Origin: Planctopirus ephydatiae
GTDB lineage: Bacteria > Planctomycetota > Planctomycetia > Planctomycetales > Planctomycetaceae
DNA length: 64,000 nt
Direction: 5' to 3'
NCBI RefSeq assembly: GCF_007752345.1
Contig: NZ_CP036299.1
Location: 1,751,001-1,815,000 of the forward strand
Part shown: positions 49,360 through 62,275 of the stretch, piece after piece
Layout: each line of letters starts with the position of its first letter
Position numbering within the stretch: the stretch's first letter is position 1
Made by a program: the position numbers and the translations under genes
The notes under the pieces: model-generated
The model's database searches: none
What the model was told of the DNA's origin: nothing
Seen by the model: the letters and a program-made list of their open reading frames with translations, nothing else

Positions 49360-50419
49360 ATGCTCGATGCGTTTCAATCCGTTTCCCTCTTGTGGGTGAT
49401 GTGCGCCGCAATACTCGTTTCATGATGCAGGGTGGTTTCTGCCTGCTGGAAGCCGGTGTCACCCGCACCAAAAACAGCATTAACGTCGCGCTGAAAAACC
49501 TCACGGACTTTTGCATTTCAGCCATGATTCTGGCTGTTTGGCTACGGCCTCATGTTCGGCCAATCTGCCTATGGGTGGATTGGCACTTCTCACTTCATGC
49601 CTGATGAGCAATTCTTCTCCATTGGTAGTACCCCCACAGCGGCCTCGGCCATCGCGTTAGGATTTTTCCTGTTCCAGATGATGTTCTGTGGAACATCGAC
49701 CACGATTGTTTCCGGTGCGTCGCAGAGCGAATTCGCTTCGCCGGGTATCTAGTCCTCTCCGTCGTACTCTCCGGATTGATCTATCCATTGTTTGGACACT
49801 GGGCATGGGCGGGGCGGATACAGGATCTCCCACCGGCTGGCTGGCAAAGCTGGGCTTTGTCGATTTCGCAGGCTCTACAGTGGTCCACTCGATTGGCGGA
49901 TGGTTTTCTTTAGCAGCCGTTATGATCATTGGCCCCAGACTGGGACGCTTTGATACCAAAGCACCTCGCATTCGTGGACATAACCTCGTTCTGGCAACTT
50001 GCGGTGTCATGCTCCTCTGGGTCGGCTGGTTTGGCTTTAATGGCGGCAGCACGTTAGCACTCAACGCACAGGTTCCTCGAATTCTGGTTGCTACCAATCT
50101 GGCTGCAATTGCCAGTTGTTTAACAGCTCTCTTTATGGCCTGGTGGATCGAGAAACGTGCCATTGTTGAAATGACGCTCAACGGGGCATTGGGCGGGCTC
50201 GTGGCCGTGACCGCGTCATGCCACATTATTCCCTTTTGGGGAGCGGTCCTCTTGGGTGTTGGTGCCGGTGTCATCTCCGTCGCAGTTACTTATTTACTCG
50301 ATGATTTCAAGATCGACGATGTCGTCTCTGCAGTTCCTGTTCACGCAGCCTGTGGACTCTTTGGAACCGTCTTCTCTGGCCACTCTTTACTCCTGAGCAA
50401 AGTTTCCAGCACGGCATGA
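49360..50419 (+). pseudogene. Ammonium transporter (Amt) domain, frame broken; N-terminal part of an Amt-kinase fusion
   Basis: Across frames the sequence reads as an Amt channel. MLDAFQSVSLLWVM opens the first helix, then [50 protein letters not shown] (first pore His and substrate-site Asp), GFNGGSTLALN and [14 protein letters not shown] (second pore His). Breaks, each a loss, lie near 49418 (T), 49530 (two bases), 49719 (G), 49811 (G) and 50380 (C). After the last break the frame continues as [11 protein letters not shown] directly into the downstream kinase, so this is one gene with it. The start at ATG 49360 is tentative. Confidence 0.85.
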
Positions 50420-52365
50420 GTTGCCTGGAGCAATTTGGTGTGCAGTTGCTGGGCTCCGGGGTCGCGTTTGTCTGGGCATTTGGTGTCGGTGGAGTCTGTA
50501 TTCATCTGATTAATAAAGTCATGCCTCTGCGCGTCAGAGCCCGCGACGAAATTGTGGGATTAAATTTTGTCGAACATGGGGCTTCCAACGACCTGGCCGA
50601 ACTAATGAGTACTATGAACGATCATCGCACCCGCGGTGATTTCAGCCAGCACGTCTTTGTTGAGCCACATAGTGAAGTTGGCCAGATCGCTGCAGAATAC
50701 AACCGCGTGCTGGATCGCGTAACGGATGAGATTCGTGCCCGCGAAGAAACCACCCACGCCTTGAAATCTGCCGAAGAAAAGTATCGCAGTATCTTTGAAA
50801 ACGCCGTCGAAGGGATCTTTCAAACCTCGCCGAGCGGGATCTACATGAATGTGAATCCCTCTCTGGCGAAAATCTATGGCTACGATTCTCCCAACGATTT
50901 GATTGGCTCCATCGGCGATATTTCGAAAGATCTCTATGTCGATCCACAAAGACGTGCTGAGTTCTGCCGTCTGATTGAAACCGAAGGGGCTGTCAAAGGT
51001 TTTGTCTCGGAAGTTTACAGGCGTGATGGCAGTACCATCTGGATCTCCGAAAACGCTCATCCGGTGAAGAATGCCGCTGGTCGCATTTTATACTATGAAG
51101 GCTCTGTAGAGGATGTCACAGAAGTTCGACGTGCGGAACAATGGCGAGCTGAAAAGGCCGAAGCTGAAGCAGCTAACGATGCCAAAAGCCAGTTTCTTGC
51201 CAAGATGAGCCACGAGATCCGGACGCCGCTCAACGGTGTCATTGGTATGCTCGACTTGCTCAAAGCCACTTCACTTGATGATCGCCAGAAACGCTATGTG
51301 ACTATCTGTCGTTCATCGGCCGATACCTTGCTGGGTTTAATTAACGATATTCTCGATCTCTCCAAAATCGAGGCCGGTCGTATGGAACTGGCACTTGTTG
51401 ATTTTGATCTGCACCAACTGGTTGAAGATATCTCCGAGATGTTCGTCCATCGTGCGGAAGGCAAAGGCATCGAACTGGCCTGCCATATTGCTCCCGATGT
51501 CCCTCAGCGAATTGAAGGGGATCCCGAACGGTTGCGGCAGATCCTGGTCAATCTTGTCGGCAACGCTCTCAAGTTTACTTCTGTCGGTTATGTCCTCATC
51601 AAGGTTTCGATGGCTCAATCCCCGACTGGCGAGCATCGCTTGCAGATCCATGTCAAAGATACAGGGATCGGAATTGCGCCAGCTCAGCAACAGAAGCTTT
51701 TCCAGCCCTTTACCCAGGCCGATGTCACCACATCTCGTCGATTTGGCGGTACCGGGTTGGGGCTATCGATCTGCCGTCAGTTGGCCGACTTGATGCAGGG
51801 ATCCATACAGATTGAAAGTGCCGTCGGTGTCGGTACGACATTTACTGTCGACCTGCCGTTAACCTCTGCTGAGGTTTCAACAGATGATCCAGAGCATGAG
51901 CCATTAGCCGGGCTGCGTGTTCTGCTGGTCGATGATAACGAAATCAATCTCGAAATTCTCAGCGAACATCTGGTTGCCTGGGGCTGCCGGGTCAGTAAAT
52001 GCCTCTCAGCCGATACCGCATTATCACTATTAAGTAAACCAGCGACCTCAGGTCCAGCTTTCTCGATCGCCATTATCGATAAACAAATGCCAGGCTTTGA
52101 TGGTGAAATGCTCGCCAGCAGTATTCGCAAGTATCCACACCTGGATTCCCTGCGCATTCTCATGCTGACCAGTGTGGACTTCAGTGATGCCGCAGTGGAT
52201 GGCATTCCCCCCTGGGATGCGTGGATCAATAAACCTGTCCGGGCAGGACGTCTGCTCGAGATGTTGCAGAAACTGCGCGACTACGTTCCTTTAGAAATTG
52301 CTCGTGAATCGTCTGCACAACAACCACCATCAGAAACCAAAACACCTTCCGCGCGCGAATTCTGA
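50416..52365 (+). CDS. PAS-hybrid histidine kinase, continuation of the Amt domain
   Basis: Residues 1-55 are the last Amt helix ([20 protein letters not shown]). A coiled linker follows, then a PAS domain (about 120-240: [17 protein letters not shown]) with a PAC tail. HisKA carries [11 protein letters not shown] with the phospho-accepting His. HATPase_c carries [14 protein letters not shown] and [10 protein letters not shown] receiver follows ([12 protein letters not shown], Asp in IIDKQMP, Lys in NKPV). The frame ends at TGA 52365, but the next receiver continues in another frame after a one-base loss near 52345. The ATG at 50416 is therefore probably internal to a longer protein. Confidence 0.9.
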
Positions 52366-52394
52366 TTGCCGACGATAATGAGGTCAACCTGATT

Positions 52395-53327
52395 GTGACC
52401 ACCGAGCTGGTCAGGTCGTTAGGCTTCGATACAGAGACAGCCGCTGATGGGTCAATTGTCCTGGAGAAACTGAAATCGCAAACTTATGACCTGATACTTA
52501 TGGATTGTCAGATGCCGACACTCGACGGCTTTGAAACCACGCGGAAGATTCGAGAAATCGAAAAACAAGCTCAGAATGGAGAGCATATTCCAATTGTCGC
52601 TTTAACAGCGAATGCCATTCAGGGAGATAACGATCGCTGCCGACAGGCCGGCATGGATGGCTATCTCACAAAGCCAATTGACCATGCTCAATTGAGTAAC
52701 ACGTTGTTGCAAATACTGACAACTCATCAGCCGGTTCCACAGCAAGAACACAAAGTTGATATTGAGTTATCCCGCAAAAAGAATCTGCTAACACAATCGT
52801 CCGCGATCTCTGTAGAAACAATTCCACAAGTAGTGACGGCTATCGAAACGATTTCACCTGCAAAAAATATTACGAAGTCAATTCTTTCTTCAGTCTCTAG
52901 TGATTCCATTGCGATACCAGAGGCCATCATTGATGTTCATCAGCAAATGATCGAAGCGGTGCAATTTCAGGAATTGGTCAATCGCTGCCGGAGAGATCAC
53001 GAGTTCGCCCTGAGAGTTCTTCAAAAATTTGCCACACGTATACTTGCTGATAAGGCACAATTCGCACTCGCTTTAGCTGCCGAAGATTCAAAAACTCTCA
53101 AATCGTTATCCCACTCCTTGAAAGGTGCCGCAGCTAACGTTGGTGCGACTCGATTGGCCCAATTGGCTGGAAATCTCGAACAGCAGATCAGCGACGATTC
53201 TTTAACTGTTCATGAACAGAATATGAATGACTTATTCAATGAAATTGATACAGTCAGAGAGTGGATCGATCGAAAGTTTCTGGCGGAGCATGCTCCAGCC
53301 AGTGCTGCTGGATCGGTGACTCTCTAG
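52395..53327 (+). CDS. Second receiver and HPt domain of the Amt-kinase
   Basis: A second receiver domain is encoded, with its first strand ([11 protein letters not shown]) lying just before this start in the same frame, so the GTG 52395 start is artificial. Phosphoacceptor Asp is in LILMDCQMP, followed by VALTANA and the Lys of LTKPID. The C-terminal domain (about 190-295) is an HPt with its phospho-His in SHSLKGAAANVGA. This completes a phosphorelay HisKA-REC-REC-HPt. A separate REC-HD-GYP protein follows 50 bp downstream and is the likely output. Confidence 0.88.
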   Translation: MTTELVRSLGFDTETAADGSIVLEKLKSQTYDLILMDCQMPTLDGFETTRKIREIEKQAQNGEHIPIVALTANAIQGDNDRCRQAGMDGYLTKPIDHAQLSNTLLQILTTHQPVPQQEHKVDIELSRKKNLLTQSSAISVETIPQVVTAIETISPAKNITKSILSSVSSDSIAIPEAIIDVHQQMIEAVQFQELVNRCRRDHEFALRVLQKFATRILADKAQFALALAAEDSKTLKSLSHSLKGAAANVGATRLAQLAGNLEQQISDDSLTVHEQNMNDLFNEIDTVREWIDRKFLAEHAPASAAGSVTL

Positions 53328-58110: not shown

Positions 58111-60639
58111 ATGACAGGCATGAATCCCGCACCTATCCTGATCCGCAATCTTTACGTGCACAATCTGCAGGGAGTCGATCTCGAGATCCCCCTGCAGCAG
58201 CTCGTCGTGGTCAGCGGGGTGAGTGGTTCAGGGAAGTCGAGCCTGGCCTTCGATACACTTTTTGCAGAAGGTCAGCGGAGTTACATCGAAACTTTTTCAC
58301 TGGCCACGAGGCAACTTCTCGAAAAGTTCGAGCGTCCTGCCGTCGATCGACTGGAAAACATTCCGCCGACAATCGCTTTGCGACAACTCGCGCAGACAGG
58401 TGACAAATCTCGACGCCAGTATGTCGATGCTCAAAACTTCGGCTCTGTGACCAGCATTGCCGACCATTTGAAGCTGCTGTTTCTTCGTTGTGGCAGCCTG
58501 ATCTGCCCCACTTGCCAGCGTAAAATCACTTCATCCTCTCCGGCAGAGGTGGCCCAGCGGCTTGCAAAACTCCCACAGGGAACACGAATTCTGGTGACCA
58601 TGAAGGTACCGGAAAAATCGGCTCTTAAATCATCTTTGGACTCACAAACTGCAGGTCCCAGCCGGAATTCAACGAAGCGTACCGCACCGCCTCGCTTACC
58701 AACAGAAAAAGCACATCAGGCTCTCATCGAAGAACTCCGTCAGCAAGGTTTTCGCCGAGGTCTCTTTCAAACAGAAGCTCCCTCCGAAAACTTTGTCACT
58801 CACGAGTTTTCCAAAGATCTGCCGCAGCATTTCGAACTTGTCGCTGTCATTGCTGATCGCTTAATCGCAGGCTCACAAACCATCGAACGCATGCTCGAAA
58901 GCTGCGAAACAGCCATGCGATACGGAGCCGGCATGATCGGCATTTGGACGCAAGTTCCTCTACCAGAAAGCCCACACTTTGCCTGCACGATGGATGGCCA
59001 GGCCTGGTACCGGCACGAGTTCAACACACGCTACCGATGCGAACCTTGCCAACGAGATTTTCCGAAGCCACAACTGGCAATGCTCGATGATGAGCCCCCC
59101 CCACAAACCCCAGAGAATACCGTCTCAGCCTCGACGTTGCTTCAGCAGTCGCTGCGCCTCGGAAATGTCAGTTGGCAAAATGCTGGCGAACAATCGCTAA
59201 ACCAACTCGACCACTTGCTACAGCAAGCGAGGAAGGAATACTTGGCTTCTGGGGGTTTCGAAGAGACTTCGAACCTGCGAGATCGATCCTTGTGGGAGCA
59301 TGTTCTCCAGAGAATCGAATGGTGCCGCAGGCTCGGGTTGGATCACCTGCCGCTTTCCAGAAGCGTGAGTGATCTTTCGGGAACTGAATATCGCCGGGCC
59401 AGGCTCATCCCGCTCCTCTCAGCGGGTCTGGTCAATACGCTCTATATTCTGGATGAGCCACTCGCCGGACTGGATGACCAGACAGCAAGCATCGTGCTCG
59501 ACGCCATCCAGAGCCTCTTAAAGAGTGGCAACAGCCTGCTCATGGTCGAGCACCATCCCCTGGCGAAAAAACGAGCCAACTTTGTGATTGAAATGGGCCC
59601 GGGAGCTGGCAGTGAAGGAGGCCGCATCGTTTACGCTGGTTCTTCTCCTGCGCCAACACAGTCGATGCCGGAACATGATCAGGTCAAACTTTTATCCCCA
59701 CCCAAGGGCTTGCGGGAACCCGCCGGCTGGATCGATCCCGGCCCGATCAACCTCAAAAATCTCCAGCAATTTCAATGGAAGCTTCCGCTGGGTCTCATGT
59801 GTGTCGTCACGGGTCGGCATGGATCTGGGAAATCAACGGCACTCATCGATGCTCTTCAGCCGACTTCCCATGGAGACACACTTCCTGCACTCGCTGGCCA
59901 TCCCCTCTGGATGGTCGATTCGTCACCACTCAAGGGACAGCCCAGTCAGATGCTGATCGGCTTGCTCGATCTTTTCGGGGAAGTTCGAGCACTCTTTGGC
60001 CAGACACCAGAAGCCAAAAACCGGCAATTGACAGCCAGGTTCTTCAGCCTGCATGTCGCCCAAAGCGGGCGCTGCTCTCAATGCAAAGGGACAGGCCAGA
60101 TCTCTGCCGATCTCACCTTTTTCAATGAAGCCTCGATGACCTGCCCGAACTGTCACGGGAAGCGTTACCGCCGCGATGCTCTGGAAATTCGCTACCGGGG
60201 GCTGAATATTGCGGAAGCACTTGATCTGACTGTCGCGGAAGCCCTTACATACTTCAAAGGGCACCACAAACTTCAAAGTCTGCTCACGACGCTCTCACGG
60301 ACGGGATTGAGATACCTGCGCCTGGGGCAAACTTTGAAGTCACTCTCCGGCGGAGAACGACAACGCATCAAACTGGCCCTGGCACTTGGTCAGCCCGTCG
60401 AAAATGGCATTTTTATCTGCGATGAGCCCACCATGGGCCTGCACGATCAGGATGCTCACCAATTGATGCATGCCTTTCAGGAACTGGTCAGCATTGGCCA
60501 CACCGTCTGGCTGGCCGACATCCATCCGGTGGCATTATCCTGGGCCGACTGGGTGATTCAGCTCGACTCGCAAACTCCGCTGACGTCGTCAGAAGTCCTG
60601 TTCTCTGGCCCAGCGACCACATTCCGTCAGAGCGAATAG
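58111..60639 (+). CDS. UvrA paralogue with a degenerate first ATPase signature
   Basis: 842 residues, about 100 shorter than canonical UvrA. First ATPase: VSGVSGSGKSSLAFDTLFAEGQRSYIE, with CPTC and CEPC zinc pairs, but the signature reads LSGTEYRRARL instead of LSGGE, before the Walker B ILDEPLAGLDD. Second ATPase: GRHGSGKSTALIDAL, zinc module CSQCKGTG...CPNCHGKRYRRDALE, intact LSGGERQRIKLA and CDEPTMGLHD. This looks like a UvrA-like protein rather than the main repair UvrA. Its target is unknown. ATG 58120 is an alternative start. Confidence 0.85.
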   Translation: MTGMNPAPILIRNLYVHNLQGVDLEIPLQQLVVVSGVSGSGKSSLAFDTLFAEGQRSYIETFSLATRQLLEKFERPAVDRLENIPPTIALRQLAQTGDKSRRQYVDAQNFGSVTSIADHLKLLFLRCGSLICPTCQRKITSSSPAEVAQRLAKLPQGTRILVTMKVPEKSALKSSLDSQTAGPSRNSTKRTAPPRLPTEKAHQALIEELRQQGFRRGLFQTEAPSENFVTHEFSKDLPQHFELVAVIADRLIAGSQTIERMLESCETAMRYGAGMIGIWTQVPLPESPHFACTMDGQAWYRHEFNTRYRCEPCQRDFPKPQLAMLDDEPPPQTPENTVSASTLLQQSLRLGNVSWQNAGEQSLNQLDHLLQQARKEYLASGGFEETSNLRDRSLWEHVLQRIEWCRRLGLDHLPLSRSVSDLSGTEYRRARLIPLLSAGLVNTLYILDEPLAGLDDQTASIVLDAIQSLLKSGNSLLMVEHHPLAKKRANFVIEMGPGAGSEGGRIVYAGSSPAPTQSMPEHDQVKLLSPPKGLREPAGWIDPGPINLKNLQQFQWKLPLGLMCVVTGRHGSGKSTALIDALQPTSHGDTLPALAGHPLWMVDSSPLKGQPSQMLIGLLDLFGEVRALFGQTPEAKNRQLTARFFSLHVAQSGRCSQCKGTGQISADLTFFNEASMTCPNCHGKRYRRDALEIRYRGLNIAEALDLTVAEALTYFKGHHKLQSLLTTLSRTGLRYLRLGQTLKSLSGGERQRIKLALALGQPVENGIFICDEPTMGLHDQDAHQLMHAFQELVSIGHTVWLADIHPVALSWADWVIQLDSQTPLTSSEVLFSGPATTFRQSE

Positions 60640-60785
60640 CACGATTTAATCACCAGATTCTGCCAGAAAACCTGCATGACCACCGCGCAGAAATTGCGGC
60701 AAATGCACAAAAACAAGGCAGGTGAGATTACGTTTTTCTAACGAAATCACCCGCGATTGTGCGACAACAATGCAGCATTGCCTAT

Positions 60786-60801
60786 TGGTATAGCGTTTGC
60801 T
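60786..60801 (+). promoter_or_regulatory. Sigma-54-type (-24/-12) promoter of glnA
   Basis: TGGTATA-N4-TTGCT, with GG and GC separated by exactly ten bases as sigma-54 requires. It lies 53 bases before the GTG start of glnA, leaving about 40 bases of leader. An imperfect palindrome at 60721-60751 upstream could be an activator site. Confidence 0.65.
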
Positions 60802-60853
60802 TAACTATGGAGAACTGATTTCTGTTATCTCCTTGCGCCAGGAGTTGCCTTTC

Positions 60854-62275
<1,422 letters not shown>

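Follow-up and report, generated by a model that had tools for sequence, protein, structure and literature searches.

Judged by its conservation among relatives, a genuine sigma-54 promoter precedes the glutamine synthetase gene glnA in the window (the whole stretch of 64,000 nucleotides that was analysed), and the two TGC-N11-GCA dyads found upstream of this promoter are new in this analysis. We consider it highly probable that glnA is controlled by this promoter together with an NtrC-like activator acting at the dyads, likely as a switch for nitrogen scarcity. What we observed is a conserved promoter element, enriched dyads, and the presence in the genome of genes encoding RpoN, activators, PII, GlnD, and GlnE; from these we infer the transcription start, binding, looping, acting protein, and nitrogen signal of the following scheme. 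Transcription of glnA would start near 60812 from the promoter at 60786-60801, where RNA polymerase containing RpoN would be held as a closed complex. An NtrC-like sigma-54 activator (receiver, AAA+, and Fis-type HTH domains) would occupy the paired dyads ∼131 and ∼100 bases upstream, loop to the polymerase, and open the promoter, most likely under nitrogen scarcity with PII and GlnD as the sensors. The core features of the locus are as follows.

60786-60801, plus strand: sigma-54 promoter core, with TGGTATA at -24 and TTGCT at -12 (sequence and fixed-spacing conservation).
60812, plus strand: predicted transcription start (from the GC at 60799-60800).
60854-62275, plus strand: glnA, type I glutamine synthetase, with a likely GTG start and ATG 60863 possible (profile match).

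The genome holding the window is a single contig of 5.21 Mb, and its named relatives are nearly all labelled as Planctomycetota or genera of this phylum. The glnA product scored 632 bits against a cut-off of 429.15 for type I glutamine synthetase, and the tyrosine of its YDLAPEE motif is residue 401 when numbered from the GTG. Direct reading of 60786-60801, which was re-checked, gave TGGTATAGCGTTTGCT, with GG at 60787-60788, GC at 60799-60800, exactly ten bases between them, and the TGG and TTGC(A/T) flanks of a -24/-12 promoter; the preliminary description of the site as TGGTATA-N4-TTGCT with this spacing was thus accurate. When the C of the GC is taken as -12, the predicted +1 falls at 60812, the same position that had been expected there. 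The element stands 52 bases before the likely glnA start codon and 146 bases past a UvrA-like reading frame that ends at 60639. This reading frame, directly upstream of glnA (58111-60639), encodes a protein of 842 amino acids that scored 476.9 bits against the curated UvrA cut-off of 729.8 bits and stays below the curated cut-offs.

The match within the window would carry little weight by itself; the significance of the promoter derives from conservation among relatives. TGG-N8-TTGCT occurs three times in the window compared to 2.67 expected in shuffles, which is the chance level, and TGGCACG-N4-TTGCW with up to three mismatches occurs 115 times compared to 112 expected, with TGGTATAGCGTTTGCT being one of the three-mismatch matches. 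For the comparison with relatives, 110 glnA loci (L002-L111) were reduced to 89 by setting aside 18 duplicates and three loci with less than 150 bases upstream, and removal of near-identical upstream regions yielded sets of 83 and 46 loci. The strict pattern GGYAY-N4-TTTGC precedes glnA in 42 of the 89 distinct loci (38 of 83 in the nonredundant set, 36 of 81 without the window's own genus) and is absent from 47 of the 89 upstream regions. Other GG-GC spacings (6-9 and 11-15) were found in none or one of the 89 loci, and the strict pattern was not detected on the reverse strand or, in 82 loci, in the stretch 700 to 1000 bases upstream. A looser score placed a promoter site in 49 of the 89 loci. 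A motif search that made no prior assumption recovered GGcAt-N4-gTTTGCat as the best 16-base motif in the 83 nonredundant upstream regions, with 470.7 bits and an estimated share of 0.76, compared to 192.4 bits for far-upstream sequence and 79 to 82 bits for three shuffles (shuffles here and in the palindrome search kept base composition only). Within the genus, four congeners share an identical stretch of 23 bases around the element, even though the leader of one of them (L019) has diverged. The comparison of related strains proposed in the preliminary description revealed a promoter conserved in a spacing-specific manner.

Sigma-54 promoters probably precede glnA in more than 42 of the 89 loci, because a variant, GGCGC-N4-(T/A)TCGC, has the same spacing and accompanying dyads in six loci (L071, L079, L080, L081, L084, and L095) that were counted as lacking the strict site. 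The pattern TGGYAYNNNNTTTGCW, which was chosen after the relatives had been seen, occurs once in the 5.21-Mb genome, at glnA, and its reversed control occurs twice. The classical consensus TGGCACNNNNNTTGCW gave three genome sites compared to one for its control; two of these (L142 and L143) lie inside long reading frames, the third is L141, and these matches were used neither for nor against the promoter. As 141 of 150 genomes from the order carry rpoN, loss of the motif cannot be correlated with loss of rpoN.

Upstream of the promoter core we found two exact dyads and one imperfect dyad, for none of which a strand is assigned.

60673-60689: distal dyad TGCATGACCACCGCGCA, TGC-N11-GCA, center ∼-131, a probable enhancer site (enriched in relatives, kept in L019).
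60704-60720: proximal dyad TGCACAAAAACAAGGCA, TGC-N11-GCA, center ∼-100, a probable enhancer site (enriched in relatives, kept in L019).
60758-60774: imperfect dyad TGTGCGACAACAATGCA, five of six end bases, center ∼-46 (sequence).

The two exact dyads, 31 bases apart, are both retained in the diverged leader of the congener L019, and exact dyads occupy the offset of the imperfect one in the loci of nine relatives. A palindrome search upstream of the promoter yielded a 17-bp TGC...GCA motif with 162.6 bits compared to 40.8 bits for the shuffle; motifs at other widths were weak or looked clade-specific. Among the 46 nonredundant promoter-bearing loci, TGC-N11-GCA is present in 39 copies distributed over 31 loci, the exact dyad being missing in the remaining 15. 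Controls in the same loci gave 2 to 13 copies for spacers of 3 to 21 bases other than N11, one to six copies for twelve other inverted words with N11, and one copy of TGC-N11-GCA in the stretch 750 to 1000 bases upstream. The glnA coding region was tried as a further control and discarded; its 41 dyads in 32 loci represent shared codons, since 31 of them fall at one homologous position and seven at another. In the 40 loci without the strict site, N11 was again the commonest spacer (22 dyads in 14 loci, with other spacers reaching 16), a weak excess. The window as a whole is not enriched in dyads (17 compared to 26.7 expected). The leader dyads are the only pair among these 17 that lie at most 60 bases apart. 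A single pair at this distance would be no great rarity in 64 kb, and it is the location and conservation of the leader pair that give it weight. Among 43 dyads of relatives, 14 have their centers at -36 to -59, and 26 promoter-near dyads display a period of ∼11 bases with a nominal Rayleigh p of ∼1e-5, a value that is the best of seven periods and uncorrected for ancestry.

The TGC-N11-GCA frame is that of the enteric NtrC consensus TGCACCAnnnTGGTGCA, as given in the available portions of PMC8743547 and of PMC4987338, in the latter within a table. The inner bases of this consensus, TGCACC...GGTGCA, are matched only in part by the window's dyads. Two exact 17-bp dyads, placed in tandem and 70 or more bases upstream, give the layout of an NtrC-type enhancer, and the pair probably represents NtrC-like enhancer sites.

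A search for the proteins that such a promoter would need identified RpoN with its activator-interacting, core-binding, and DNA-binding domains, scoring over its cut-off; the preliminary description had made its proposal depend on this gene. The RpoN box reads ARRTVTKYR here, the usual form being ARRTVAKYR. The genome contains 18 matches to the sigma-54 activator domain, 13 of them strong (>110 bits). Seven activators that were scanned all matched HTH_8 (L123 just below the cut-off), and six possess a receiver. The activator loop is GAFTGA in L112, L114, and L119, GAYTGA in L121, and GSFTGA in L115, L116, and L118. Four further activators of the genome (L113, L117, L120, and L122) have altered loops (GAFTSA, GSFTDA, or GSFTSA) in place of GAFTGA and may thus depart from the usual mode of sigma-54 promoter opening. 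Four proteins, L112, L114, L119, and L121, combine a receiver, a Sigma54_activat domain, a Fis-type HTH, and a GAFTGA-type loop and thus are NtrC-like response regulators, none of which is linked to glnA. No protein of the genome exceeded the curated NtrC cut-off (TIGR01818, 558.6 bits), and none is therefore assigned as an NtrC (NR(I)) ortholog; the best scores were 421 bits in the genome search and 435.1 bits for the whole protein L117. The DNA-binding helix of L121 gave Fis as its first match and NtrC (1ntc) at an E value of 0.0045, and no activator was selected on this basis. On the sensory side, the genome has three PII matches, GlnD above its cut-off beside two of them, and GlnE. Of the nitrogen control of glnA that was first proposed, the sigma-54 part is well supported, and an NtrC-type activator finds indirect support in the dyads with their NtrC frame and in PII, GlnD, and GlnE, but this activator would be an NtrC-like protein below the NtrC cut-off.

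Related elements were observed at ammonium transporter genes. The second ammonium transporter gene (G000:2890818-2892353) is preceded by AAGGCACGCTCGTTGCT, with its GG 146 bases before the start, and by dyads.

L184 4354-4800 (G000:C1:2892353-2892799): stretch at the second transporter gene that holds TGC-N11-GCA dyads and a sigma-54-like site (retained in part of the relatives).

We looked at 13 of the 30 transporter loci L148-L177 (L148-L160, own locus included); eight had a site scoring at least 5/7 within 700 bases, the same eight had dyads, and the other five had neither. No clear sigma-54 site was found before the other transporter gene, which adjoins the PII and GlnD genes. The two PII genes have a CGGGCACAAAACCTGCT site between them. 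The window also contains an ammonium transporter-histidine kinase fusion (PAS, HisKA, HATPase_c, receiver, and receiver-Hpt) at 49419-53327 that is broken across frames, with five PF00909 pieces in order, one of them with an internal TGA. It is either a decayed gene or a sequence error.

Several other explanations deserve consideration. The promoter could be a chance match to a short consensus, as the chance-level frequency of the motif alone in the window would allow; this idea is extremely improbable and was dropped on the spacing-specific conservation, given that the fixed spacing is maintained in many genera and that the motif was recovered without prior assumption. Another alternative involves a conserved element upstream of the core.

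60778-60783, plus strand: TTGCCT, -34 to -29, an extension conserved in a clade-specific manner (conservation).

Relatives conserve TTGCY at -34 (60778-60783 in the window), and the -10 place (60802-60807) reads TANNNT in part of them. TTG at -34 occurs in 24 of the 49 promoter-bearing loci, the window among them, and TANNNT accompanies it in 16 of these 24 compared to two of the 25 loci without TTG. This co-occurrence may represent an overlapping sigma-70-type promoter or merely shared ancestry. If it were the former, TTGCCT could serve as the -35 element and an A/T-rich -10 element overlapping the GG-GC core could complete the main promoter, with sigma-54 unused or secondary. We judge this very unlikely: the GG and GC are invariant and are retained in loci that lack the TTG, the copy in the window, TTGCCT-N18-TAACTA with TAACTA at -10, is a weak one, and a sigma-70 scan of the leader yielded nothing.

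The promoter and dyad enhancer could also be as described, with an activator, for example one like AtoC or ZraR, that answers a signal other than nitrogen. The lack of any protein above the NtrC cut-off fits such a view, as do the scores of L112 and L119, which are higher with the AtoC model than with the NtrC model, and the histidine kinase encoded beside L114, which is nearest to AtoS and ZraS, all of these matches being below cut-off. We nevertheless find it improbable, because the genes concerned are glnA and an ammonium transporter, the dyads are in the NtrC frame, PII and GlnD are present, and L114, L117, and L121 match the NtrC model best, although below its cut-off.

The preferred reading, a sigma-54 promoter with an NtrC-like enhancer serving nitrogen scarcity, has its closest parallel in glnAp2 of the glnALG operon of Escherichia coli and Salmonella. 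There, as here, a -24/-12 core lies before glnA, two 17-bp TGC-N11-GCA dyads are situated at a similar distance upstream, and PII, GlnD, and GlnE are present; the anatomy is that of the enteric glnA switch, and it is the assignment of an activator as NtrC that failed when tested. In E. coli the NtrC sites are ∼90 and ∼140 bases upstream and at least 70 bases are needed, according to the accessible part of a review (PMC7408454). Unlike glnAp2, the present system lacks both an NtrC above the cut-off and ntrBC genes adjoining glnA, the half-sites of relatives tend toward TGCCYA in place of TGCACC, the -24 half is GGTAT rather than GGCAC in the window, and relatives frequently carry dyads at -36 to -59, short of the 70-base distance given in that part of the review. 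A survey of sigma-54 regulons (PMC12316311), in the portion available, predicts promoters in Planctomycetia with glutamine-synthetase-like COGs mentioned in passing, and describes glutamine synthetase control as mainly a feature of Pseudomonadota and NtrB/NtrC conservation as limited in Planctomycetota; in contrast to the present results, that portion neither names glnA nor includes enhancer dyads. Within the literature collection that was searched, we found no report of a sigma-54 glnA promoter with NtrC-like sites in Planctomycetes.

Taken as a single promoter, the element is ordinary. Its relevance is that a nitrogen switch resembling the textbook case of gut bacteria probably exists in the distant planctomycete phylum, which would extend the classic combination of a sigma-54 glnA promoter and an NtrC-like enhancer far beyond Proteobacteria; the exact sites and the short list of candidate activators offer a route to the planctomycete nitrogen regulator. 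A bolder proposal, which we regard as rather unlikely, is a planctomycete sigma-54 nitrogen regulon (glnA and the ammonium transporter) whose activator uses the same dyad without being an NtrC ortholog. In many lineages its dyads would be helically phased beside the polymerase (-36 to -59), nearer than is the norm for looping activators, and one clade would have its sigma-54 core embedded in a sigma-70-type promoter, forming a two-way switch.

The start of glnA was also reassessed.

60840-60844, plus strand: Shine-Dalgarno sequence AGGAG for GTG 60854 (22 identical bases in four congeners).

The AGGAG lies nine bases before GTG 60854, inside the block of 22 bases that is identical in four congeners, and this GTG is the likely start by sequence; ATG 60863 is possible, and no in-frame ATG exists upstream of it. 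Of the 89 loci, 77 have a start-like codon at residue 4 and 24 have one at residue 1, 23 of the latter also showing a Shine-Dalgarno-like stretch. The preliminary description had moved the start to GTG 60854 on the grounds that an upstream ATG would fall inside the promoter. The Shine-Dalgarno sequence and the conserved block favor the new start, but the reasoning was wrong: the ATG at 60807-60809 precedes the GTG by 47 bases, in another frame, and the in-frame codon within the promoter is TTG 60797. The segment 60829-60844 (CTCCT-TGCGCC-AGGAG) can form a small hairpin over the Shine-Dalgarno AGGAG; it was flagged as terminator-like by a scan, both of its arms are kept in the congener with the diverged leader, and translation control by this hairpin is possible.
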